The notes under the pieces: generated by a model
What the model saw: the letters and a program-made list of their open reading frames with translations, nothing else
Database searches by the model: none
Told to the model about the DNA's origin: nothing
Source: Pseudomonadota bacterium
GTDB lineage: Bacteria; Pseudomonadota; Alphaproteobacteria; Acetobacterales; Acetobacteraceae
DNA: 17,744 bases
NCBI GenBank assembly: GCA_021845835.1
Contig: JAJZVE010000018.1
Span: 1-17,744 of the forward strand
Reading direction: 5' to 3'
Shown here: in pieces, positions 1-12,494 of the stretch
Layout of the letters: each line of letters starts with the position of its first letter
Position numbering within the stretch: position 1 is the stretch's first letter
Position numbers and translations under genes: made by a program

Positions 1-1
1 C

Positions 2-211
2 GAGGCCCGCGTCGTCATCGAACGCTGGCGACAGGACTACAATCACGTCAGACCGCACTCGGCCCACGGCGGGCTCTCGCCGGAAACAGTGCGGATAAAC
101 CACGCCTCCGGACGGCCGCACAACCCAACCCGTTCCGCCGCCCAGCCGCTTCCGCCAGCGCCGGAGATCACCTATCAACTGATCTGCTCCCGGAGAACTG
201 GATCGATTTGA
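2..211 (+). pseudogene. IS3-family transposase orfB, C-terminal end (5' part outside window)
   Basis: Reading from base 2 gives an open frame to a TGA at 209-211. It contains the stretch ERWRQDYNHVRPHSAHGGL, which is the conserved end of the rve/DDE integrase core of IS3-family OrfB (the W..DYN..RPH.A pattern). The catalytic residues and the rest of the protein lie left of the window, so it cannot be said whether the upstream part is intact. The end sequence TCTGCTCC at 183-190 has its reverse complement GGAGCAGA at 247-254, next to an orfA start, as expected for terminal repeats of related elements. Family assignment is from recognition of the motif; its state (live element or fragment) is unknown. 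Confidence 0.8.
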
Positions 212-259
212 GGCAGATTTTTCTGCTTTTGTTCCCTTGGTTGGGAGGAGCAGAGAGCG

Positions 260-345
260 ATGAAGGCATCGATGTTTTCGGACGCGCAGAAGGCGTCTAT
301 CCTGAAGCAGTGAAGGGACAGCGGGCGGCCGAGCGATCAGTCTGC
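260..345 (+). pseudogene. Decayed 5' end of an IS3-family orfA transposase
   Basis: ATG at 260 opens MKASMFSDAQKASILKQ and then hits TGA at 311-313. This peptide matches the start of a common IS3-family OrfA type (MKASxFSDAQKAFILKQG...), which is normally about 90 residues with a helix-turn-helix. Beyond the stop, the bases GAAGGGACAGCGG and CGGCCGAG still resemble the next codons of that gene but with small insertions and frame changes, so it is a decayed fragment rather than a short gene. Purine-rich GGGAGGAG lies just upstream. It sits head-to-tail behind the orfB end, which is an unusual order for a single element copy. Confidence 0.6.
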
Positions 346-450
346 CGTGTGGCCCACACGCAAGTTGCTTTCTCTCCGTTTACAACTACCGCACGACGCG
401 CGATCGATCATCCATAAACACGTCGCGCTTGCCATCTGGAATAGGCCAGC

Positions 451-459
451 GGAAAGGGG
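451..459 (+). promoter_or_regulatory. Ribosome binding site for first HEPN gene
   Basis: GGAAAGGGG lies 10 bases upstream of the ATG at 470. It supports that ATG as the start rather than the longer open frame from 347, whose extra residues overlap the transposase debris. No convincing -35/-10 pair was found between 346 and 450. Confidence 0.45.
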
Positions 460-469
460 CAGATCGGAC

Positions 470-1045
470 ATGGTGTTGCAGGACGTCACGCTGCCCGTGC
501 GCGCGGAGCCGTTCATTCTGTCCTGGCCAAGCGATGGTCAAGCCGGGGGCTTCCTGCAGTTCGACTACCCCGATCAATGGCGTACCTTTATCGACAGGCT
601 TGGGATCCATCCTGTTATTCCAGCCATCGTCACCGAGAAGTTCGCCCGCGCGCAGGCGCTTTATCTCCTGGGCTGGTTCGATGTCGGTCTGATCAAGGCG
701 GGTGAGCTGGCCGCTCTGGTCGCGTTGGAGTTGGCCCTGACCGATCGCTACGGCGGAGCATTCAAAAAGAAGCCGAGCTTCAGCGCCTTGCTAAAGCATA
801 TGGTGGCTGTCGACGGCCTGACCGACGCCGGCATCCCGATGGTCGTGCGATGCGGCGGAACCGCTATCGGTCAATTGATCGGCGAGGTTCGTCCAACACT
901 TGCCGAGCGCCGGAATAGCCTGGCGCACGGCGATCCGTTCGAGGGGTGGCCCACCGCCGGATTGCTCGAGCTGGCGCGTGATCTCATCAATTTCGCCTAC
1001 CGGCGCTACATCGCCGAGGCCGCCGCAGCGGGGGTCGCCTCGTGA
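470..1045 (+). CDS. Small HEPN-domain protein (RNSLAH motif), first gene of the putative defence operon
   Basis: The product is 191 residues from the ATG at 470, chosen for its Shine-Dalgarno-like sequence. A helix with AGELAALVALELALTDRYG (about 78-96) is followed by a second helical part ending in ERRNSLAHGDPFEG, with R148 and H153 in the spacing R-x4-H. This is the catalytic signature of HEPN domains, many of which are RNases in toxin-antitoxin, abortive-infection and CRISPR systems. A last helix (LLELARDLINFAYRRY) follows the motif, as in that fold. No signal peptide or membrane segment is seen. The stop overlaps the next start (GTGA, 1042-1045), which points to translational coupling. 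That it is an RNase or a partner of the downstream NTPase is inferred from motif and context only; the family is not otherwise recognised. Confidence 0.7.
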   Translation: MVLQDVTLPVRAEPFILSWPSDGQAGGFLQFDYPDQWRTFIDRLGIHPVIPAIVTEKFARAQALYLLGWFDVGLIKAGELAALVALELALTDRYGGAFKKKPSFSALLKHMVAVDGLTDAGIPMVVRCGGTAIGQLIGEVRPTLAERRNSLAHGDPFEGWPTAGLLELARDLINFAYRRYIAEAAAAGVAS

Positions 1046-1770
1046 CACCGTTCCGATGGGAGAATTGCCATGCCGATGTCGCCGCAGCCCAGCATGACCT
1101 GACGATCCGATCCTTCCTCGACGACGTCATTCTGCCGGCGATCTGCACGCTCGAAGCCCGCATCGCCGCGCTCGGGCGCAGCGAGCGCGCTGGCGCCGCC
1201 TTCGAGCAGTCGGACATGGAGGACATGCTGTCGGAAACCAAGAAGGCGTTTGGCTTGTCGACGCAGTCGATCTGGGAGCGCCAGCTTCGGGCCTATCTCA
1301 GCGGCTGCGGAGAGGAGCTTCGTCCCGGCGAGGGATTCGGCACGAAAGTGGCCAGGGCGAATTGGCCGGGCCTATGCGACCTCTTCCGCGAGTTGCGCGG
1401 AATTCCGCTCGAAGATTTCCCGAGCTTTGGTGAACTGGATACGCTGCATCATCTGGGCAACGCTTGCCGTCATGGCGATGGCGCTTCGGGCGCAGAGCTG
1501 GCCCGACGCTGCCCGGACTGGTGGCCGATATACGCACCGATGCTGGACGAATTCGGGCTATCCGAGCCACCCGAGCTAACGGTAGTGGCGATGGACGTGC
1601 CAGTGGATCGGGTCGTGCGTTTTGTCGAGGCGATCGCCACGTTCTGGACCGACGCCAGTTATATCTACAACGAAAGTATAGAGCGGAAGCATCCAAGCCT
1701 TGAGGCGCGGCTCGCCCGTGAACGTGCGGAGCGTTCGTGGATGCCACAGGCCCGGGCTGGACAAGATTGA
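1042..1770 (+). CDS. HEPN-like protein with N-x-x-RHG motif
   Basis: The product is 242 residues with a GTG start inside the stop of the preceding gene (GTGA overlap). It is largely helical by eye. STQSIWERQLRAYL (about 73-86) is followed by LDTLHHLGNACRHGDG (132-147), then a C-terminal helical segment (VPVDRVVRFVEAIATFW, 186-202). The L.N...HG pattern resembles the conserved H-G element of HEPN families, but the usual R-x4-H arginine is replaced by N140 (N-x3-H), so it may be a catalytically weaker or inactive partner. It has no membrane segment. The next gene starts 2 bases after its stop, so the three small genes are probably co-transcribed and coupled. A HEPN assignment is plausible but less secure than for its neighbours; another helical family is possible. 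Confidence 0.6.
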   Translation: MTPFRWENCHADVAAAQHDLTIRSFLDDVILPAICTLEARIAALGRSERAGAAFEQSDMEDMLSETKKAFGLSTQSIWERQLRAYLSGCGEELRPGEGFGTKVARANWPGLCDLFRELRGIPLEDFPSFGELDTLHHLGNACRHGDGASGAELARRCPDWWPIYAPMLDEFGLSEPPELTVVAMDVPVDRVVRFVEAIATFWTDASYIYNESIERKHPSLEARLARERAERSWMPQARAGQD

Positions 1771-1772
1771 CA

Positions 1773-3071
1773 ATGGCGGACAGAGAACTCATCGCCGCCG
1801 TGGAGAAGGTCTGGCGGATTCCGCGCCCCGGCCCCGACAACCTTCCGAAAGCGCCTGCCTTCGTCGCGCTGAGCGCGCTCTGCGCCCGCCTCTACGGAGC
1901 CGGCAGTCCGAAATTCGCCCTGGGCACGGCGCTGCGATCGTTGGGGTTGCCGTGCCAGCTCCCGGCTAAACACGCCAATCTAGCCCTTGATCCCGCCACC
2001 GCCGCCACCGCGCTGGAGGCAGCCTTCAGGCGGAAGAAAGCCGTGAGGCGGCATCTATGCCCGCTCGATCTCGCTGACGACTTGGCACCGCTGGCATTTG
2101 GTCGGTCCCGCGTCGCCCAATTCGGCGCCGACGAGCTGGCTAAACTGTTTGATGCGCCGCGCCTGGTGCGCACGTTCCCGAACACGCCGCTCGACGCCAA
2201 GCGACTCGCGCAATTCCATTGGCTGGTAGTCGAAGAGGAACTCGAGCTCGATCAGCCACCAGAGGTGCGGGCGGTGCCGCTACTCTCGATGACTATGCGG
2301 CAGGACTTCGGAGAGATCGTGCCGCACCTAGGCCGCTTCCCGGCTGCCGTGGAGTCCGCGCTCGCCTTCCTGTTGCTCGCGCCGTGGGAGGAGTGGTCGA
2401 CGATGCTGGAGGTCGACTGGCGCGGCTTTCGGGTGCCCTGGATTTATACCATCAGCGACGATCTGTTCGAACGGCCCAATCTTCCACCCGGTCCAGACAG
2501 CCTCAGCCTCGAGCCCTGGATCGTCGATGACTATGGCAAAGAAATCGAACTGGAGCGGCCAACCACCCTCCCGCTAGACGATGCGGCGGCTACACTCGCG
2601 CAATTCGGCGAAAGTTCTTGGCGGGAATTCCTGCATGCCACCTCGGCGAGCGTCTACGAGACTCCGATCCTCCACTTCCTCGTGCGCGCGTTTCTCGCGG
2701 ACGGGATGGACGAGATCATGGCCCACATGACCGCGATCGAGGCGGCGCTGGGCCTGGAAGGCGATCATCGTGCGAAGCCGAAGGGGGATCCGCACCGGAA
2801 ATTCGGGGCCACGACACGTGTCATGGCGCGCATGGCGGGCCTGCTGAACGACGCTCAAGCCGCACCGGTCTACAAGGATCTGTTCCGGATTCGTAGCGAC
2901 TATGTTCACGGCCGCGGTGGCTTGCAGAAGGTGTCGACGGCCGAGCGCGTGCGCGCGCGCAGTCTGGCGCGGCGCGTTGCGCGTGCGCTTGTCGATGTGG
3001 CTGGACAACCGACGCGACCGCGCAAAGACACCATGTCGGATCTCCTCACGAAGGGCGCGCAGCTCCTCTAG
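1773..3071 (+). CDS. Apea-like HEPN-domain protein (RSDYVHG motif)
   Basis: The product is 432 residues from ATG 1773, two bases after the previous stop; a GTG at 1737 in the same frame would overlap that gene by 34 bases and is less likely. The N-terminal 280 residues are not recognised. The C-terminal part has a helix with MDEIMAHMTAIEAALGLEG (312-330) and then DLFRIRSDYVHGRGG (369-383), with R374 and H379 in R-x4-H spacing. The L..IRSDYVHG form is characteristic of Apea-like HEPN domains found in defence loci. A final helix (ARSLARRVARALVDVA) follows. The long N-terminal region could be a sensing or targeting part. The protein appears cytoplasmic. The RNase role is inferred from the motif. 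A gap of 116 bases separates it from the nuclease-STAND gene. Confidence 0.7.
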   Translation: MADRELIAAVEKVWRIPRPGPDNLPKAPAFVALSALCARLYGAGSPKFALGTALRSLGLPCQLPAKHANLALDPATAATALEAAFRRKKAVRRHLCPLDLADDLAPLAFGRSRVAQFGADELAKLFDAPRLVRTFPNTPLDAKRLAQFHWLVVEEELELDQPPEVRAVPLLSMTMRQDFGEIVPHLGRFPAAVESALAFLLLAPWEEWSTMLEVDWRGFRVPWIYTISDDLFERPNLPPGPDSLSLEPWIVDDYGKEIELERPTTLPLDDAAATLAQFGESSWREFLHATSASVYETPILHFLVRAFLADGMDEIMAHMTAIEAALGLEGDHRAKPKGDPHRKFGATTRVMARMAGLLNDAQAAPVYKDLFRIRSDYVHGRGGLQKVSTAERVRARSLARRVARALVDVAGQPTRPRKDTMSDLLTKGAQLL

Positions 3072-3187
3072 CGCGATCACCGAACGAGCGGTTCTTTCAC
3101 CATCTGATCGTCTCTGGCCCGTAGCGTCATCGACGCCATTGGCGATCCTTGATAGAATAATTACAGAACATCCTGAAGTCATTGATC
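3072..3187 (+). other. Intergenic gap before the STAND gene, with an AT-rich patch
   Basis: This is the only sizeable gap in the operon (116 bases). An AT-rich patch, TTGATAGAATAATTACAG (3149-3166), stands out from the GC-rich surroundings and contains the -10-like TAGAAT. No good -35 box lies at the right distance. It could be an internal promoter for the large gene, but this is weak. Confidence 0.25.
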
Positions 3188-6100
3188 ATGGACAGCCGGA
3201 TAGCCGGAACTAGTCCCGAACTCACCGCCGGCGCCGGCTTTACGTTCGAGGATCGCGTTGCCGCGATTTATCTGACCGCGCTCGTGGGTCGTTCCGGCGC
3301 CGCCGGTCTGCGCGGCGACGAGGTCATTGCCGTCGAGCTTCAACGCGCCGCATTCGGGCAGCCGATGGATGATCTGATCGTGACGGCCGCGCTTCCCGAT
3401 GGCTCGGCCGCGCGCCTCGCCCTGCAAGCGAAGCGGGCGCTCACGATCAGCGCCGCCGGAAGCAACACGGATTTCCGCGACGTGGTGGCAAAGGCCTGGG
3501 CGACCCTAGGCCAAGTTGGATTCCGCTTTGGGGTCGATCGCGTCGGCGCGGTGACCGGCTCGATCGCCGAAACCTCAAAGCGTGCCACGCAGACCGTCTG
3601 CGAATGGGCGCGCGTCAGTCCTAATGCCGCGGAGTTTGAGGCCAGGTTCGCGCCGGGCGCCGCCAACGACCGCCATCGCCGCGTGCGGGACGCCTTCCAT
3701 GTCGTGCTGACAGCGCTTGATCCCCTAGCGACGCTGGCCGACCTGCACCGGCTTTTCGCGAGCTTCCAACTGATCACATTCGACTTGCTACACGAAGGAT
3801 CGACGGATGAGGCCCACGCGGTCAGCCTGCTCCGCACCTACCTCGCTCCCGTTGACGCGGCGCGGTCGGAGGATTTGTTTGTTCGCCTGACCCAGATTGC
3901 GCAGGACAGCGCCGGGCGGGCGGGTCAGTTCACCCGCTCCCTATTGCTGGCCCGCTTGCGGGGTCAATTTCGGTTCGAGGCGGCGGGACAATACCAAGCG
4001 GATCTGGCCAAGCTCGCGGATGAAGCGCGACTGGCGTTGGCGGAGATCGACGATCGGGTGGAGGGCCTTCACCTTCCTCGCGAGGCCTTGTCAGCCCAAA
4101 TTGAACAAGCACTCGGGGCAAATCGTTTCGTCCAGATTAGCGGCCTGCCTGGCGCCGGCAAGTCGGTGGTGCTTCGCGGCCTGGTCGAGGCCGCGCTTAC
4201 GAGCGGTCCGGTCATCTTTCTGAAGGCCGATCGCTTGCAAGGCAAAAGCTGGACTGCCTATGCGGCCGCCCTGCACCTGCAAACGAGCCGCTTGAGCGAC
4301 CTGCTGACGGAGGTGGCGGCAGCGGGAACTCGAATTCTGTTCATCGATGGATTGGACCGGATCGAGGTCGAGCAAAGATCCATTGTCAACGACATCTTGA
4401 ACCTGCTCGCCGGGGCTCCGGGCCATGAGGATTGGCGGGTGGTCGCGTCCGTGCGCGACAATGGTCTGGAGCCCTTGAGAACCTGGCTCTCGCCTCGCTG
4501 GTTGGCCGGTGGCGCCGCAGTCCTCGACGTGAAGGCGCTCGACAACACCGAGGCGACCATCTTGGCCAAGGCGCGGCCTCAGCTTCGCGCCCTGCTATTC
4601 GGATCCGCGCGGCTGCGCGAGCTCACTCGGCGACCGTTCTTCCTGTCCGTCCTGGCGCGTCTGCCCAACGTGGGCGCCATAGCGACGGAGAACGATCTAA
4701 TCGAAGCCTGGTGGCGAGGGGGCGGTTACAACGCACCCGATGACCAGACGGGCGACCGTCAGAGAGCTCTCCTCGCCCTGGCCTGGGACGGTGCTCGGAC
4801 CCTCGGGCGGCGCATGTCTGTCAGCGCGCTCGCCGGCACGCCGTTAGCGGCGCTACGCGCCGATGGCATCATCCGCGAAGTCCGGTCCGGTCACACGGTG
4901 GCGTTTTCCCACGACATCTATTTCGAGTGGGCGTTCCTGCACCTGCTCATCGATCGGGGTGAAACCTGGCCGGAGGTTCTCAGCGCCGTCGGCGAACCGC
5001 CCGGGCTGGGCCGGGTGATCGAGCTCTTGGCTCAAGTCTATTTCCTTAATCCTCCGACCTGGGCCGATCATCTGGGTCGCCTGGAAAAGCTGAGGCTGCG
5101 CAGTCAGTGGACGAGAGCGTGGCTGCTGGGTCCCTTTGGCAGTCCCGCCTTTGAGGATCAGGCAGCGCAAATGACCGCTGCCGGCTTTGACGGCGATCAG
5201 CCTCGACTGACGAGACTAGCGGTATGGTTCCAGGCAGAAAAGACCCGGCCCAATCCCAGAATCGTCGAGCAGGGGGCGGGCGCCGACGACGTACAGTTCA
5301 CCCTGCGCATGGCCGACCTGCTCGCCTGGCCATCGGACTTCGAGGCCTGGGGTCGGCTCATCGACTGGCTCGTCAAACACAAGGATCGCATCTGGCCGGC
5401 GGCAACGGCGGATGTCGTCTCGGTGTTCGAGGTCTGGCAGAACGCGCTCGCCGATTTGGCGAACCCGCGCTCGGAAGCAATTCTTCAGCTTGCCAAGGAA
5501 TGGCTCGAAGATATTGAAGATCGCCAATACCGAAGGGACACTCGGACGTTCGACTGGGGGCGCTGGTCGGGGATGATCGGCGACCTCGACGCTCTTGAGA
5601 AACGCTTGCGTGTCCTGCTGCTCCGAGCCGCCAGGGCCTATCCCGAATTGGTGCGCGGATATCTGGATCAGCTTCAATCCCACGATCGCCTCGCCAGCGT
5701 TGCGTTTGAAAATGTGCTGCAATATTCGCGGGTTTTGGCCGACACCCTGGCCGCCGAACTCTCCGACTGCGTCCGATCCCAAGTCTTGGACGAGCTGCCG
5801 GACGAGGCGCGGGCGAGACAGCTAGCGGAAAACGATCCGTTCGTCGGTTATGGCGACGATACTTTCGCGTGGCACCAGCTGTCGATTGCCCATGTAGGGC
5901 CATTCTTCACCTCTCCTTCCCCCAAACAGGAACCGTTCCGATCGCTGTTCCAGGTGGCGCCGGATGAGGCGCGCAGGCTGGTCGCCGACCTCTGCAACCA
6001 CGCGATCACCGCCTGGCGGCAGCGCCATGCCCGCGGGGGCCATATGACGGCGCATCCCATCCCGCTGATGCTGCAATTTCCTTGGGGCGAACGAACGTTT

Positions 6101-8149
6101 TGGGGGGATGCGCACGTTTACCTCTGGTTTCGCGGGGTCTGGGGTCCGGACGCCGTGACGGGAGCGCTGATGGCGCTGGAGGCCTGGGCGCTTGGGCAAC
6201 TTGAGAGCGGCCGTGTCCTGAACGAGGTGCTGCAGGAGACCTTGGAGGGCCATGAAAGCGCGGCGGCTCTTGGGATCGCCGTCAGCCTGATGCTGAACGC
6301 GCGGACCACAACGCCAGCGGGCGTACCTTTGATCGGCTCTGCCCGATTGTGGGGTTGGGATCTGAAACGATGGCAGCATGATCGCGGCCACAACCCAAAC
6401 ATGATCGCCTTCGCGACGTCCCACGACAGCGATGGGCGCGAAGCTCTTCGGGCGAGCAACGCGTTGGCCTTCCGCCAATGGTCCCTGCGTGACCTGGCTG
6501 TGCTCTTTGTGGTTAGTGCCGACTCGCTGATCCGAGAGGCCGCTCAAAACGCTATCCAGGCGTTCGAGCAAAATCCGCCTGTCGATTTCGCCGAGGAGTT
6601 GGAGGATCCCGAACGCCTCGCCGCGGCGCAACGAACGGCGCTGATCTGGTCACGGCTGGGAAATCCAGAGAACTATACCGTTGAGCCGACGTCCGACGGC
6701 ACTGCCGTCGTGATCGCGCATACCAATCCCCATCAAAATGATCCGGATGTCGTTGAAGCGGCCGAACGCCTTAGGGCGATGAATGACCAAGCGGCCCTAC
6801 AGCTCTGGGCGAGCGATTGTTTCGAGAAGAAGGGCCTCTCGGACCGCATGCCTTTGGAACAGGCGCTGGCGGGCGCCCGCGCGCTCGATCAACCGGACCT
6901 GTTTGAACAGCCCCGCGAATTTGGGATCCGCTCAATGGCTCAGAGCGCGGTGGCCGGCGTGGCCGCGGCGGCTCTGAGATTCGCCAGACTAACCTCCACC
7001 GACGCGGATTGGGCATGGCAAACGATCCGCCGAGCCGCCTTCACACCGGAGTCACCCCATGAGCTGTTCTTCGCCGGAGCGGTGGTTCCCGATCACCCGT
7101 GCATCTACGCGGCGCGCGGATTGGCCGCGATGGTGGGCGCCGCTCGGCACTCCAAGATGGCGCGCGAGACTCTGTTGCGCCTCGCCTTGCATCCGCTCGA
7201 GCTGGTCTCGGCGACCGTGCTTTCTGAAGCGATGGGCTGTTGGGTCCTCGACCGGAAATTCGCCTGGACAGCGTTCGATCTAGGGCTTCGGCTCTCGGTC
7301 GGCTACCCCGTGGAACGGCCGTCCGCCTACGGGTACCACCACACATCGAATCGGCATGCGATGGAGGCTTCGTACCAGGTAGCAGTTCGCCGCTTGAAGT
7401 CACGCCGCGCCGATTTCACGCTGCCGGCGCCACCCGCAGCGTGGGAGCGATCCACGTCCACGGACGCCGCAGCGCCTGCGCGGCCGCGCGGCCGCCGATC
7501 GCCGCGGGGCACAGGCTGGCGCGAACCCGAGACCTTCCTTCGATGGGATTTTCTACCGAAAGTGCTGAGGGGTGTACCGATCCGGCAAATCCTCGCGGAC
7601 GCGGACTATCGGGCCGCCCTTCTGACGCTTTGCGAACAGCTACTGGACTGGACAATCCAACGGCTCGTGCCGCCGTGGGTGGACGAACAGGCGCCGGGTC
7701 AACGAGACCACCGCTCGACTGATATTCTCGAATGGCGCAGGAACCTCGGGCAATTTCTCGCCGAGGTGGGGCTGGTCCTACCAGCCGATGAAGTCCGCCG
7801 ACGCTTCCTCGATCCAATCTTCGCCTTGGAAGATGAGTTAGCTCATTCCCTGATCGCACCGATCGTGGATGTGACGAGCGCGGCTGGCCTGCTCGATCCC
7901 GTTGTGGTCGCACCCTCTGCGCTGCCGACGCTGAATGGATGCGCCGATCGTATCCTAGCGTCGGGCGAATGGGCCAAAGGCCGCCGCTCCGGAGGCGATC
8001 TTCATGGGTACAATCTACCCATGATCGTGCGGGACGTCATGTTCGTTGCGCATCTCGACGCCGGCGGAGCCTTGAGGTTTGCGAACGGCGACTGGCGTGA
8101 GTTCGGTTTAATCTCCCCAATCATTGAGAGAATGACCCGGAGAGAATGA
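3188..8149 (+). CDS. Giant PD-(D/E)xK nuclease - STAND/NACHT NTPase protein, Avs-like architecture
   Basis: The product is 1653 residues from ATG 3188; a TTG two codons upstream is the alternative start. Residues 15-110 look like a Cap4/DUF4297-type PD-(D/E)xK nuclease: GAGFTFEDRVAA (15-26), then MDDLIV (60-65, acidic D61/D62) and LALQAKRAL (77-85), where Q80-x-K82 is the active-site strand. A P-loop NTPase follows with Walker A GLPGAGKS (319-326), Walker B RILFIDGLDRIE (382-393), the strand VVASVRD (418-424) with a sensor-like arginine, and the post-ATPase segment RRPFFLSVLARL. A winged-helix-like VAFSHDIYFEWAFL comes next. The remaining roughly 1000 residues are helical and repeat-like, with no recognised domain. 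In antiviral STAND proteins this region binds a phage protein and triggers oligomerisation and effector activation; that role here is inference. The C-terminus appears cut short by a 14-bp duplication. Confidence 0.8.
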   Translation: MDSRIAGTSPELTAGAGFTFEDRVAAIYLTALVGRSGAAGLRGDEVIAVELQRAAFGQPMDDLIVTAALPDGSAARLALQAKRALTISAAGSNTDFRDVVAKAWATLGQVGFRFGVDRVGAVTGSIAETSKRATQTVCEWARVSPNAAEFEARFAPGAANDRHRRVRDAFHVVLTALDPLATLADLHRLFASFQLITFDLLHEGSTDEAHAVSLLRTYLAPVDAARSEDLFVRLTQIAQDSAGRAGQFTRSLLLARLRGQFRFEAAGQYQADLAKLADEARLALAEIDDRVEGLHLPREALSAQIEQALGANRFVQISGLPGAGKSVVLRGLVEAALTSGPVIFLKADRLQGKSWTAYAAALHLQTSRLSDLLTEVAAAGTRILFIDGLDRIEVEQRSIVNDILNLLAGAPGHEDWRVVASVRDNGLEPLRTWLSPRWLAGGAAVLDVKALDNTEATILAKARPQLRALLFGSARLRELTRRPFFLSVLARLPNVGAIATENDLIEAWWRGGGYNAPDDQTGDRQRALLALAWDGARTLGRRMSVSALAGTPLAALRADGIIREVRSGHTVAFSHDIYFEWAFLHLLIDRGETWPEVLSAVGEPPGLGRVIELLAQVYFLNPPTWADHLGRLEKLRLRSQWTRAWLLGPFGSPAFEDQAAQMTAAGFDGDQPRLTRLAVWFQAEKTRPNPRIVEQGAGADDVQFTLRMADLLAWPSDFEAWGRLIDWLVKHKDRIWPAATADVVSVFEVWQNALADLANPRSEAILQLAKEWLEDIEDRQYRRDTRTFDWGRWSGMIGDLDALEKRLRVLLLRAARAYPELVRGYLDQLQSHDRLASVAFENVLQYSRVLADTLAAELSDCVRSQVLDELPDEARARQLAENDPFVGYGDDTFAWHQLSIAHVGPFFTSPSPKQEPFRSLFQVAPDEARRLVADLCNHAITAWRQRHARGGHMTAHPIPLMLQFPWGERTFWGDAHVYLWFRGVWGPDAVTGALMALEAWALGQLESGRVLNEVLQETLEGHESAAALGIAVSLMLNARTTTPAGVPLIGSARLWGWDLKRWQHDRGHNPNMIAFATSHDSDGREALRASNALAFRQWSLRDLAVLFVVSADSLIREAAQNAIQAFEQNPPVDFAEELEDPERLAAAQRTALIWSRLGNPENYTVEPTSDGTAVVIAHTNPHQNDPDVVEAAERLRAMNDQAALQLWASDCFEKKGLSDRMPLEQALAGARALDQPDLFEQPREFGIRSMAQSAVAGVAAAALRFARLTSTDADWAWQTIRRAAFTPESPHELFFAGAVVPDHPCIYAARGLAAMVGAARHSKMARETLLRLALHPLELVSATVLSEAMGCWVLDRKFAWTAFDLGLRLSVGYPVERPSAYGYHHTSNRHAMEASYQVAVRRLKSRRADFTLPAPPAAWERSTSTDAAAPARPRGRRSPRGTGWREPETFLRWDFLPKVLRGVPIRQILADADYRAALLTLCEQLLDWTIQRLVPPWVDEQAPGQRDHRSTDILEWRRNLGQFLAEVGLVLPADEVRRRFLDPIFALEDELAHSLIAPIVDVTSAAGLLDPVVVAPSALPTLNGCADRILASGEWAKGRRSGGDLHGYNLPMIVRDVMFVAHLDAGGALRFANGDWREFGLISPIIERMTRRE

Positions 8150-8153
8150 CCCG
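8126..8153 (+). repeat. Perfect 14-bp tandem duplication at the stop/start junction
   Basis: GAGAGAATGACCCG occurs twice back to back (8126-8139 and 8140-8153). It carries the last codons and stop of the STAND gene (8147-8149) and the start codon (8146) of the next ORF. With one copy removed, the frame reads IERMTRAVGDVP straight through from the large ORF into the small one. Because 14 is not a multiple of 3, the duplication is itself the frameshift that separates them. Confidence 0.9.
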
Positions 8154-8496
8154 CGCGGTTGGCGATGTTCCGATCGTCGCCCAGTCGTTTCTGATTGCCT
8201 GTGAGCGGGCGTTGCCTTTCGTGCCGGCGAGCTGGTTTGCTGAATTGGCGCTGTCGATGGTGAGTGATCATGGCCGGCCCAAAGGTTGGGAGAAATGGTC
8301 CTTGCCGGGCCGGCTAGCGAGTGTCGTCCAGTTGGTTGCCGAACAGAGACACCCTCTCGGCGAGGACGTCGCCAGAACGCTGCTTCGGACGCTGGACGCC
8401 CTGGTGGACATGGGTGATCGACGCGCGGCGGCGCTTCAGATCAGCGAGATATTCAAGGATGTTCGGACCGATCCCCCGACGGCCGACGCGGCCTAA
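8146..8496 (+). CDS. Detached C-terminal fragment of the STAND protein (116 aa)
   Basis: ATG 8146 overlaps the stop of the large gene (ATGA) and has GGAGAGA directly upstream, so reinitiation is possible. The 116 residues are helical (FLIACERALPF, WFAELALSMV, GRLASVVQLVAEQRH, TLLRTLDALVDMGDRRAAAL), like the region before it, with no catalytic motif. The tandem duplication explains its existence as a separate ORF: one copy fewer joins it in frame to the large protein, for 1764 residues in total. It is best read as the original C-terminus, now either a separately translated piece that may still associate with the rest or a non-functional leftover. A naturally separate small partner gene is the less likely alternative. 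Confidence 0.7.
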   Translation: MTRAVGDVPIVAQSFLIACERALPFVPASWFAELALSMVSDHGRPKGWEKWSLPGRLASVVQLVAEQRHPLGEDVARTLLRTLDALVDMGDRRAAALQISEIFKDVRTDPPTADAA

Positions 8497-9008
8497 CGCG
8501 GCCGCTCTTGGCCCTCCGCCGGCGCGTTATGACTTGACGTGCGGTTCGCATGGGAAACCGCCTCTGATTCTCTCGCGGTGCAGGTCGGGCTGGGTTGACT
8601 GTGAACCGGCGTCGAATCCGGATCTCACCCCGTCCGTCGTCTAACTAATTGAATTGGCGTTGAAAATGGACGTTTGTCCGGGATTCTGTTGGCGCCGAAC
8701 GGGAGCCTGCCAAGAACAATTTTCTGAATGATATCAAGATGTTGTACTGCTCGTTGGCGACCCAATTGGTCGCCGGCTCTTAGCCATTTTCGCCGCCAAT
8801 TCCGCCTTTTGGGGTAAAGGGCTAGGCTCGGTGTGACGCCCGACTTCTCACAGCTCCATGTCGCTGTACGCGTGATACAGAAAAACTTTGACATCTCTAT
8901 GGCCATCATCGATGCTGTGGTCCGTGTACAGCCATTTAAAATCGTACCTCCGTAACCTCTGTACCATCCAGGTCGGCTTCACCGCCCGCGCCCGGTTCCA
9001 GGCTGCCG
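8497..9008. other. Stretch without a supported gene between the defence operon and the metallopeptidase remnant
   Basis: About 510 bases, visibly more AT-rich after 8640 than the flanking genes. Two overlapping weak frames compete: a minus-strand frame ending at 8848-8850 that reads PTWMVQRLRRYDFKWLYTDH and on to FLYHAYSDMEL, and a separate minus-strand open frame 8625-8909. Neither has a recognised motif or a clear start. The region may be debris from a rearrangement that also removed the 5' half of the metallopeptidase gene. No tRNA, terminator or insertion-sequence end was recognised. Confidence 0.4.
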
Positions 9009-9011
9009 CGC

Positions 9012-9446
9012 TTGAAGGTCCTCCGCTCCGACCAAACAGGCGTGAAACTGGTGCGCGGCTTCTTCATCGTTGAAGCGCCAAGGGTCGCTGACGGCGACGA
9101 GATCGGACGTCTGCTCGAAGCGTGGTACGGCGCCAAAGCCCGCCACAAATTTGCGGAGCGACTAGAAGCCAACCTCCCGCGCTTCTCGGGCCCGGAGAAG
9201 CACCGCCCCACCAGGATCATGGTGCGCCAACTCAAGCGCCGCTGGGGTTCGATGTCTCCCTCCGGTCGCCTCCTTCTGAATCGGCGCCTCATACAGGCCC
9301 CAACCGAATGTATCGACTACGTCATCACGCACGAGCTCTGCCATCGAGCCGAAGCCCACCATGGCCCCGCCTTTATTGAGCTGCTAGGCCGCGTAATGCC
9401 CGACTGGCCACGACGCAAAGAGCGCCTCGAAAAAGTGATGGCATAG
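9012..9446 (+). pseudogene. YgjP/DUF45-type zinc metallopeptidase, 5' half missing
   Basis: The open frame starts at a TTG (9012), with no good ribosome site, and gives 144 residues. It contains KRRWGSMSPSGRLLLNRRL (75-93), then the zinc site THELCHRAEAHHGPAF (106-121) with H107, E108, H111 and a third ligand at H116 or H117. This is the typical core of YgjP-like (SprT/M48-related) peptidases, which are usually around 230-240 residues. The first residues (RLKVLRSDQTGVKL) correspond to the middle of full-length relatives, so roughly the first 80-100 residues are absent. The frame just upstream runs into a stop at 8937-8939 with unrelated sequence. The catalytic core is kept, so a shortened but expressed product cannot be excluded. 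Such genes are often found beside restriction or defence systems. Confidence 0.7.
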
Positions 9447-9478
9447 CAAGCAAGTCGCGACGATCGAGGTTTCTCCAG

Positions 9479-9512
9479 GTCCAGCGTGGCTAACCGCGAC
9501 ATTCCGCTGGAC
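9479..9512 (+). other. Hairpin 1 in the leader of the DUF3489 gene
   Basis: GTCCAGCG (9479-9486) and CGCTGGAC (9505-9512) form a perfect 8-bp inverted repeat with an 18-base loop, 33 bases after the metallopeptidase stop. It could end that transcript or be part of a structured leader. There is no T-run directly after it. Confidence 0.45.
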
Positions 9513-9521
9513 TTCTGTTGG

Positions 9522-9537
9522 CACCAGAGCGTTGGTG
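9522..9537 (+). other. Hairpin 2 in the leader of the DUF3489 gene
   Basis: CACCA (9522-9526) pairs with TGGTG (9533-9537) across a 6-base loop, 9 bases after the first hairpin. It is short and significant only as part of the series. Confidence 0.35.
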
Positions 9538-9563
9538 TCCGTGCTGGTGGCCGACTGACCGGG

Positions 9564-9593
9564 CGCCAGCCGCCCCGACCGGCTTGGCTGGCG
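9564..9593 (+). other. Hairpin 3 in the leader of the DUF3489 gene
   Basis: CGCCAGCC (9564-9571) and GGCTGGCG (9586-9593) form a perfect 8-bp stem with a 14-base loop. An alternative pairing uses GCCCCG in the loop with the downstream CGGGGC, so two exclusive folds are possible, as in an attenuator. It lies 56 bases before the DUF3489 start. Confidence 0.45.
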
Positions 9594-9649
9594 GGGCCTT
9601 GGGTGGTGCGAGCGCCACGTTCGGCGCGCACCAACCGCAGGAGCCGACC

Positions 9650-10021
9650 ATGACACCAAACCAGACCGACAACGTAACAACTGCCGCAGCACCACAGGCC
9701 GTCGAAGGGGTACGCGGCAAGCGCAAGGTGAAGGGCCCAGCGATCACGAAGCCGACGGCGCCCCAGGATGGCCGCCAGACCAAGCAGGCGGTGATCATCA
9801 ACCTGCTCCAACGTTCGCAGGGTGCCTCTATCGCCGAGCTGGTGAAGGCCACCGGCTGGCAGAACCACTCCATCCGCGGCGCCATCAGTTTCACTCTCAA
9901 GAAGCAGCTCGGCGTCAACGTCACCTCGCAGCGCGATGAGATGCGTGGCCGCGTCTACCGCATCGGCAGGGCCGCCAAGCCCGGCAAGGCGTCCGGTGGT
10001 CGCACCAAGAAGCGGTCGTGA
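9650..10021 (+). CDS. DUF3489 family protein, first gene of the recombinase module
   Basis: The product is 123 residues from ATG 9650, with CAGGAG six bases upstream; the same frame is open from 9518, but that part covers the hairpins. After a basic, low-complexity N-terminus, residues about 40-110 (TKQAVIINLLQRSQGASIAE, then LVKATGWQNHSIRGAIS, then RGRVYRIGR) form a winged-helix-like domain typical of DUF3489. This suggests DNA binding; the function of the family is not established. In alphaproteobacteria it regularly precedes a DUF2924 gene and a serine recombinase, as here. Its stop overlaps the next start (GTGA). A regulatory or accessory role in recombination is inferred from that association. 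Confidence 0.85.
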   Translation: MTPNQTDNVTTAAAPQAVEGVRGKRKVKGPAITKPTAPQDGRQTKQAVIINLLQRSQGASIAELVKATGWQNHSIRGAISFTLKKQLGVNVTSQRDEMRGRVYRIGRAAKPGKASGGRTKKRS

Positions 10022-10498
10022 GCGGGGTTGACCTGGAGGAGCGGCTGCGGACGCTCGCGACCATGGACATCGCAGCCCTCCGAGCCGAGTGGCGACGCCT
10101 GTATCGGGTGTCGCCCCCCACTCGTCTCCGCCGCGATCTCCTCACCCGCGGTGCCGCCGACAAGTGGCAAGAAGCGGCCCAGGGCGGGTTGCCCGGCGCC
10201 GTCCGTCGTCGCCTGCTCGCCCTGGCCGAAGGTGGGCAGGAGGAAGGCCAGGTAGTGCGGGTTCAGCCGGCACCTCGCCTCCGTCCCGGCACTCGCCTAC
10301 TGCGCACCTGGCGCGGTCGCACCATGAGCGTCACGGTGCTGGAGGACGGCTTCTTGTTCGACGACCGCCGCTACACCTCCCTCACCAAAATCGCCAAAGC
10401 CATCACCGGCGCCCACTGGTCCGGCCCCAGGTTCTTCGGCCTGGCCAAGGCGCGACCGGTCCTTGATGGCGTCTCAAACCCCGATGAGACGGTATCCG

Positions 10499-10509
<11 letters not shown>
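10018..10509 (+). CDS. DUF2924 domain protein
   Basis: The product is 163 residues from a GTG at 10018 that overlaps the DUF3489 stop. It has the DUF2924 pattern: the early helix MDIAALRAEWRRLYRVSPP (16-34) with the following RRDLLTRG, and a C-terminal part with RPGTRLLRTWRGRTMSVTVL, FLFDDRRYTSLTKIAKAITG and HWSGPRFFGL. These look like small beta and helical DNA-binding elements, and similar sequences occur beside large serine recombinases. The exact role is unknown; an accessory factor for the recombinase is inferred. Its 3' end overlaps the recombinase start by 11 bases, so the three genes are likely translated from one message. Confidence 0.85.
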
Positions 10510-12253
<1,744 letters not shown>

Positions 12254-12494
12254 AGCCCCAGTAGCCACCCATATTGATGCGCTTTGGCATCCATCGCCCC
12301 GCATCGGCGATGCACTGAACCGTACCAAAAAACTGGGTCTCAGAGACTGTCGCCGCCGAAGCCCTCAAAAACCGGTCAGAGACCGTCTCTGGCGTCGCTT
12401 GCGGACCATCGTCGCCGCAAAATCCCACGGCATAACGGGGTTGTTTTTGTAAACCGAAATTCAGTTGAAATTATGCGATATCATGGAGTTACGC
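12254..12494. other. Non-coding stretch after the recombinase with two small palindromes
   Basis: No supported gene. GTCT-cag-AGAC lies at 12337-12347 and the perfect palindrome AGAGAC-c-GTCTCT at 12378-12390. Both share CAGAGAC, and GTCTCTGG recurs at 12524-12531. Open frames here on both strands have no motif. These could be protein-binding sites near the element end. Confidence 0.35.

Follow-up and report, generated by a model that had tools for sequence, protein, structure and literature searches.

Three putative HEPN-type genes and a split Avs4-like STAND gene as neighboring, probably separate modules in a mobile-element region of an Acetobacteraceae contig

Do three small HEPN-type genes that are followed by a giant nuclease-STAND gene make up one defense system, or do two separate units lie side by side? 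The question is raised by a 17,744-nucleotide stretch of an Acetobacteraceae contig (JAJZVE010000018.1; hereafter the window), for which a first-pass annotation, made from the letters alone, had proposed that genes A, B, C, and D (Table 1) form a single operon combining three possible RNases with a nuclease-tipped STAND sensor. The open reading frames and their coordinates were found as described there, as were the GTGA by which gene B, with its GTG start, overlaps gene A and the 2 bases that separate B from C. Genes C and D are 116 bp apart and not coupled, and only two promoter-like sites lie in positions 1-9100, where 1.6 are expected by chance; one of the two is the site in the C-D gap. 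The mobile-element setting was likewise confirmed, with a transposase fragment upstream (which we take to be from an IS3-type transposase) and a serine recombinase module downstream. ORF E is followed by genes for a YgjP-like peptidase, DUF3489, DUF2924, and a large serine recombinase, and beyond the recombinase come oligopeptide-transporter-type genes and an amidohydrolase gene on the opposite strand.

Table 1 Features of the window around genes A to D.
Feature	Position	Strand	Basis or remark
Transposase C-terminal fragment, integrase core rve_3, debris	2..211	+	Pfam PF13683 positions 41-67 of 67, E 1.1e-9
Gene A, 191 aa; putative HEPN protein, canonical RRNSLAHG motif (R148, H153)	470..1045	+	ORF, alignment
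Gene B, 242 aa; predicted HEPN fold, Gly139 at would-be catalytic Arg of Rx4H, R143-H144 kept	1042..1770	+	
Gene C, 432 aa; N-terminal region of ~290 aa and predicted C-terminal HEPN domain (about 293-411), R374-x4-H379	1773..3071	+	
C-D gap, 116 bp; promoter-like site at 3130-3158	3072..3187	+	
Gene D, 1653 aa; PD-(D/E)xK-like N-terminus (D62, Q80, K82), STAND NTPase (K325, D387), long C-terminal region	3188..8149	+	
Perfect 14-bp tandem duplication at the D/E junction	8126..8153	+	D and E in different frames there
ORF E, 116 aa; separated C-terminus of D, overlapping it by ATGA	8146..8496	+	

The H-G motifs noted at the outset are present, and the residue pairs named for A (R148/H153) and C (R374/H379) are each invariant in 40 aligned sequences. 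In A, N149 and G154 are invariant in the same alignment and an Rx4-6H motif is present; the status of A as a putative HEPN protein rests on its conserved RRNxLAHGDPF motif. When 40 A members were scanned with Pfam, three matched HEPN_MAE_28990 (best E 0.1) and ten the unrelated RTG2_C (best E 0.063), none significantly, a result that does not favor HEPN. The A profile gave no significant score against the Pfam members of HEPN_MAE_28990 by hmmsearch, and its hhalign alignments to B and to C were not significant; among the UniRef cluster names of A relatives, two say HEPN.

For B and C, structure models predict the HEPN helical fold, and their best structural matches by a second-look aligner are HEPN proteins, those of B including HepT toxins and HepS bound to the lambda J tail tip. 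The fold assignment depends on the second-look aligner, since Foldseek found no match at E ≤ 0.001 in the PDB for B or C or in BFVD for B; on that footing the HEPN fold is borne out for these two proteins. The catalytic motif of B is incomplete: at positions 137-139, where the arginine of Rx4-6H would fall, 75 of 76 aligned sequences have no arginine, the remaining one carries R137, and none has one at 138 or 139. Position 139 is glycine in 75 of these sequences and alanine in one, and R143, H144, and G145 are present in all 76. In the models, H144 ends B helix 129-144 much as H379 follows C helix 363-378. Pfam scans of 40 B members found no HEPN family (best DUF7602, in 3/40, E 0.0097), and a PADLOC match of B to RTasHEPN was weak (E 0.018). 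In C, R374 and H379 are also invariant in eight diverse copies (the window included), completing an Rx4-6H motif, and the ~290-aa N-terminal region is mixed alpha/beta in the structure model, with no fold recognized in it. No HEPN match at E ≤ 1 came from Pfam scans of 40 C members; three UniRef names of C relatives read Apea-like.

The claim of three HEPN-type proteins therefore stands as a predicted fold for B and C and as a motif for A, and falls short at the arginine of B. With no catalytic arginine at the usual place in B, the standard catalytic pair is probably present in at most two of the three proteins, and the three possible RNases first proposed reduce to probably no more than two. 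At E ≤ 0.001, A has 861 related proteins, B 198, and C at least 685. None of the three had a significant match in Pfam, NCBIfam, or PADLOC, and comparison of their profiles and of the D sequence with solved structures returned nothing useful.

Gene D was correctly read as a nuclease-STAND gene: K82 and K325, which the first-pass annotation had singled out, are invariant together with D62, Q80, and D387 in 10 aligned rows (D and 9 of the 11 D loci, with L005 and L033 left out); these cover the PD-(D/E)xK-like residues at the N-terminus and the Walker A/B residues of the STAND NTPase. In Pfam, AAA scored just over its cut-off, and nSTAND1 and NACHT fell below theirs. The PADLOC comparison, which gave nothing significant for the small proteins, matched D to DUF626_VIII (2.1e-12, over residues 11-150) and to Avs4 (3.8e-12). 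With Avs4 (the AVAST type 4 nuclease-STAND; NF041815), D shares a STAND NTPase, a length of ~1600 residues, a nuclease-like N-terminus, and significant profile similarity around D 292-585; it differs in that it reaches only 80.8 bits against the NCBIfam equivalog cut-off of 1500, in that its N-terminus matches DUF626_VIII instead, and in that the copy in the window is split. As far as sequence profiles can tell, D is a relative of the Avs4 type and not an Avs4. The PADLOC candidate PDC-M54A was matched by three D relatives at weak to moderate scores (highest 52 bits, Polaromonas L011), and D itself had no match to that model at E ≤ 1. Relatives of D are roughly 29-42% identical to it over most of their length. 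They come from Dyella, Aromatoleum, Candidatus Accumulibacter, a Rhodanobacteraceae genome, and Brevundimonas; plasmid-borne ones, with six records covered to at least 80%, belong to Polaromonas, Rhizobium, Pseudomonas, Shinella, and Azospirillum. A gammaproteobacterial sampling found D in 4 of 369 genomes, one being the already known center and two partial.

The C-terminal ~116 residues of D form the separate ORF E in the window, in another frame, and the corresponding segment lies in D's own frame in 9/11 sampled D loci. E is detached here because of the perfect tandem duplication, the two copies of which occupy 8126-8139 and 8140-8153. The giant gene is thus probably damaged, and unless reinitiation yields E, its product may be missing the C-terminal end. 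Since D relatives are broken in frame in five of the 11 sampled loci (L004, L005, L031, L032, and L033), by mutation or sequencing error, frame loss in genes of this type may be recurrent.

Outside the window, the full A-B-C order recurs on the Novosphingobium plasmid pLA1 (L006), after a CoiA-family gene. There A and B overlap by ATGA if B is taken to start at 9255 of L006, ahead of the annotated start, and B and C overlap by one base (TGATG). On pLA1, a gene for a 368-aa protein and the CoiA-family, nuclease-like gene precede the trio (L006 6594-8665); the matching place in the window is occupied by transposase debris, so an upstream partner of the window's A-B-C may have been lost. The A. 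rubi plasmid pW2_73_1 carries A and C with a TGATG overlap and without B, and adjacent locus tags point to an A-C pair in Labrys okinawensis and a C-B pair in Enhydrobacter. The protein listings gave 89 rows for C, 67 for A, and 71 for B with contigs of at least 5 kb; among these, pairs with a longest contig of exactly the same size numbered 11 for C/A, 10 for C/B, and 3 for A/B, compared with shifted-control means of 0.13, 0.23, and 0.1, a count that indicates shared contigs, not adjacency. Plasmid records with C contained A in 2/28 and B in 1/28, and 10 of the 11 plasmid records with B contained neither A nor C. In an alphaproteobacterial sampling of 385 genomes, C was found in two (one partial; one weak, with stops) and A in one, weakly. 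Judged by these gene orders and records, A-B-C is a recurring but loose module.

What stands next to each gene varies. Upstream of C lies a TIR protein gene with an ATGA overlap on a Ti plasmid, and a gene for a ~200-residue protein in Shinella and, overlapping C, in Rhizobium. The two proteins of this family (L028 7382-9311, L046 4388-6311) are 77% identical to each other. They carry an ECKGG motif that is PD-(D/E)xK-like by eye only, to which Pfam gave no support; all ExK-motif readings of neighbors (L028, L046, L019, and L024) were likewise made by eye and lack Pfam confirmation. Elsewhere, the upstream neighbor of C is an OLD-type ATPase gene followed by an ‘ATP-binding domain’ gene, a P-loop NTPase gene, or an Abi-like protein gene, or there is no coupled gene. 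The start of C overlaps the upstream gene in four (L006, L007, L009, and L046) of the 11 fetched plasmid C loci, which include one unannotated locus (L047). B lies downstream of, and overlaps, a TrlF-family ATPase gene on a viral contig (L017 6963-10717; TrlF 689 bits vs a cut-off of 350), follows a methyltransferase gene and a small gene in Mesorhizobium, and elsewhere adjoins a Shedu-domain gene. In Sphingobium, an AbiJ/Abi_C gene and a gene for a 375-residue protein precede A. Pattern-based IMG/VR scans found two loci for B and none for C, A, or D, and no phage record emerged from searches for C and B. The small genes thus appear, from their neighborhoods, to be a little-studied group that swaps partners. 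A literature search returned no description of the trio, which is weak evidence of absence given that subscription papers were mostly outside its coverage.

Comparison with described HEPN systems yields partial likenesses. C resembles ApeA, a HEPN protein with an N-terminal domain of ~300 aa (PMC3710099), in having a long N-terminal region, a C-terminal HEPN domain, and an Rx4-6H motif. It differs in that the same text describes ApeA-NTD1 as mostly beta (PMC3710099), as opposed to the mixed alpha/beta model of C, and in the missing Pfam HEPN match noted above. HepT, the toxin of the HEPN-MNT (HepT-MntA) toxin-antitoxin pair, ranks with the structures that B and C match best; the difference is that no nucleotidyltransferase match was found among the window proteins scanned with Pfam. 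Tha and HepS are HEPN proteins linked to phage tail proteins. The likeness here lies in the place of HepS among the best fold matches of B and in the HEPN motif of Tha, R265NSIMH270 (PMC11087260); the differences are that no sequence relation to either was found and that the window has three consecutive HEPN-type genes, one of them without the arginine.

Could the four genes nevertheless be one defense system, a DNase-tipped STAND sensor acting together with three RNases? They share a strand, A-B-C are tightly spaced with D close behind, and elsewhere HEPN genes do adjoin nuclease-like or ATPase genes. Against this, alignment searches of 12 sampled genomes or replicons with D relatives found A, B, and C in none of them, although the same queries matched the control plasmids in 2/2 (A), 3/3 (B), and 4/4 (C) cases; tblastn of A, B, and C gave no significant match in 11 D loci; and D was absent from all 16 sampled plasmid records carrying A, B, or C, with a control Polaromonas plasmid matched. 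The promoter-like site between C and D also speaks against a joint unit, though such sites are about as numerous as chance would give. The first-pass annotation had proposed to give up its operon as a chance neighborhood if the giant gene were almost never beside the small ones, and in this sample of 12 and 16 that is the pattern observed. A-B-C-D as one four-gene system was accordingly rejected for the sampled genomes, and we regard it as highly improbable altogether. We think it fairly probable instead that A-B-C and D are two neighboring, independent putative anti-phage modules in a mobile-element region; related genes in other genomes suggest that the two are separate, with a probably antiviral role, and adjoin here by chance.

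The same locus could also be read as decaying debris, in which an IS element cut the island upstream of A, the 14-bp duplication broke D, and little or nothing works now. The transposase fragment does end before A, pLA1 has two more genes ahead of A, and D is not only split here but also broken in some of its sampled relatives; A, B, and C, however, are full length with the invariant residues of their families, and E remains an open frame with an ATGA overlap to D. We consider general decay an unlikely account. Alternatively, A-B-C might be a toxin-antitoxin set, with A and/or C as the HEPN toxin and B as the antitoxin that binds it. The near-universal loss of the arginine in B, the overlaps or near-overlaps of A-B and B-C, and the HepT toxins among the best fold matches of B would fit, but because B occurs without A or C in most of its plasmid records, and A-C without B in A. 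rubi, B is not obligatory, and we find such a set distinctly improbable. More ambitious is the idea that an undescribed modular defense family centers on C, a HEPN core with an exchanged upstream partner (A; B with A; TIR; or the nuclease-like protein with the ExK motif). A single sensor-RNase core would then be joined to RNA-, NAD-, or DNA-attacking arms, and the arginine-less HEPN would regulate the active ones; this we hold to be possible, if doubtful.

With A-B-C and D taken as two independent modules, a mechanism can be sketched for each. C would act as an RNase-type HEPN protein with its ~290-residue N-terminal region as a sensor or regulator, and A as a small protein of HEPN type whose motif is intact. 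B, with its predicted HEPN fold and no usual catalytic arginine, would probably pair with active HEPN domains and so regulate or scaffold them. C and A may be abortive-type RNases that stay inactive until infection and, once released, would cut RNA and stop growth. HEPN RNase activity operates in defense, and the catalytic histidine is required in Tha (PMC11087260). D would be a separate one-gene STAND sensor, by analogy with the Avs proteins, which are described as STAND proteins whose defense is set off by phage proteins, terminase and portal among them (PMC10286901). On that model, its C-terminal part would bind a phage protein, the NTPase would drive oligomerization, and the N-terminal PD-(D/E)xK-like domain would cut DNA. 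The window copy of D, with its last ~116 residues in a separate frame, is probably impaired unless the ATGA-coupled E complements it.

What remains after the analysis is, on present sequence evidence, an unmodeled HEPN module whose partners vary and an Avs4-like gene that is split, and a tempting but unsupported four-gene system is corrected. Defense-finding programs built on Pfam, NCBIfam, or PADLOC models would probably miss the A, B, and C families, which match none of these significantly. Should C prove to be a partner-swapping core, it would show new bacterial immune systems arising through recombination of one constant HEPN protein with a range of effectors, and B would then offer a natural test of what a HEPN protein without the catalytic arginine does.

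The remainder of the window yielded some minor observations. It contains no tRNA gene and no Rfam match above the gathering scores, and megablast of positions 1-12300 against plasmids found no match. The YgjP-like metallopeptidase gene (9012-9446) is apparently N-terminally truncated because only profile positions 83-206 of 207 match. The DUF3489, DUF2924, and large serine recombinase genes follow consecutively at 9518-12253, and ~500 bp at the start of the recombinase gene are 72-75% identical to alphaproteobacterial and other plasmids among the matches listed. Between E and the peptidase gene lies an inverted repeat of 19 nt (8651-8669 and 8784-8802), the arms of which are 89% complementary and 114 nt apart.
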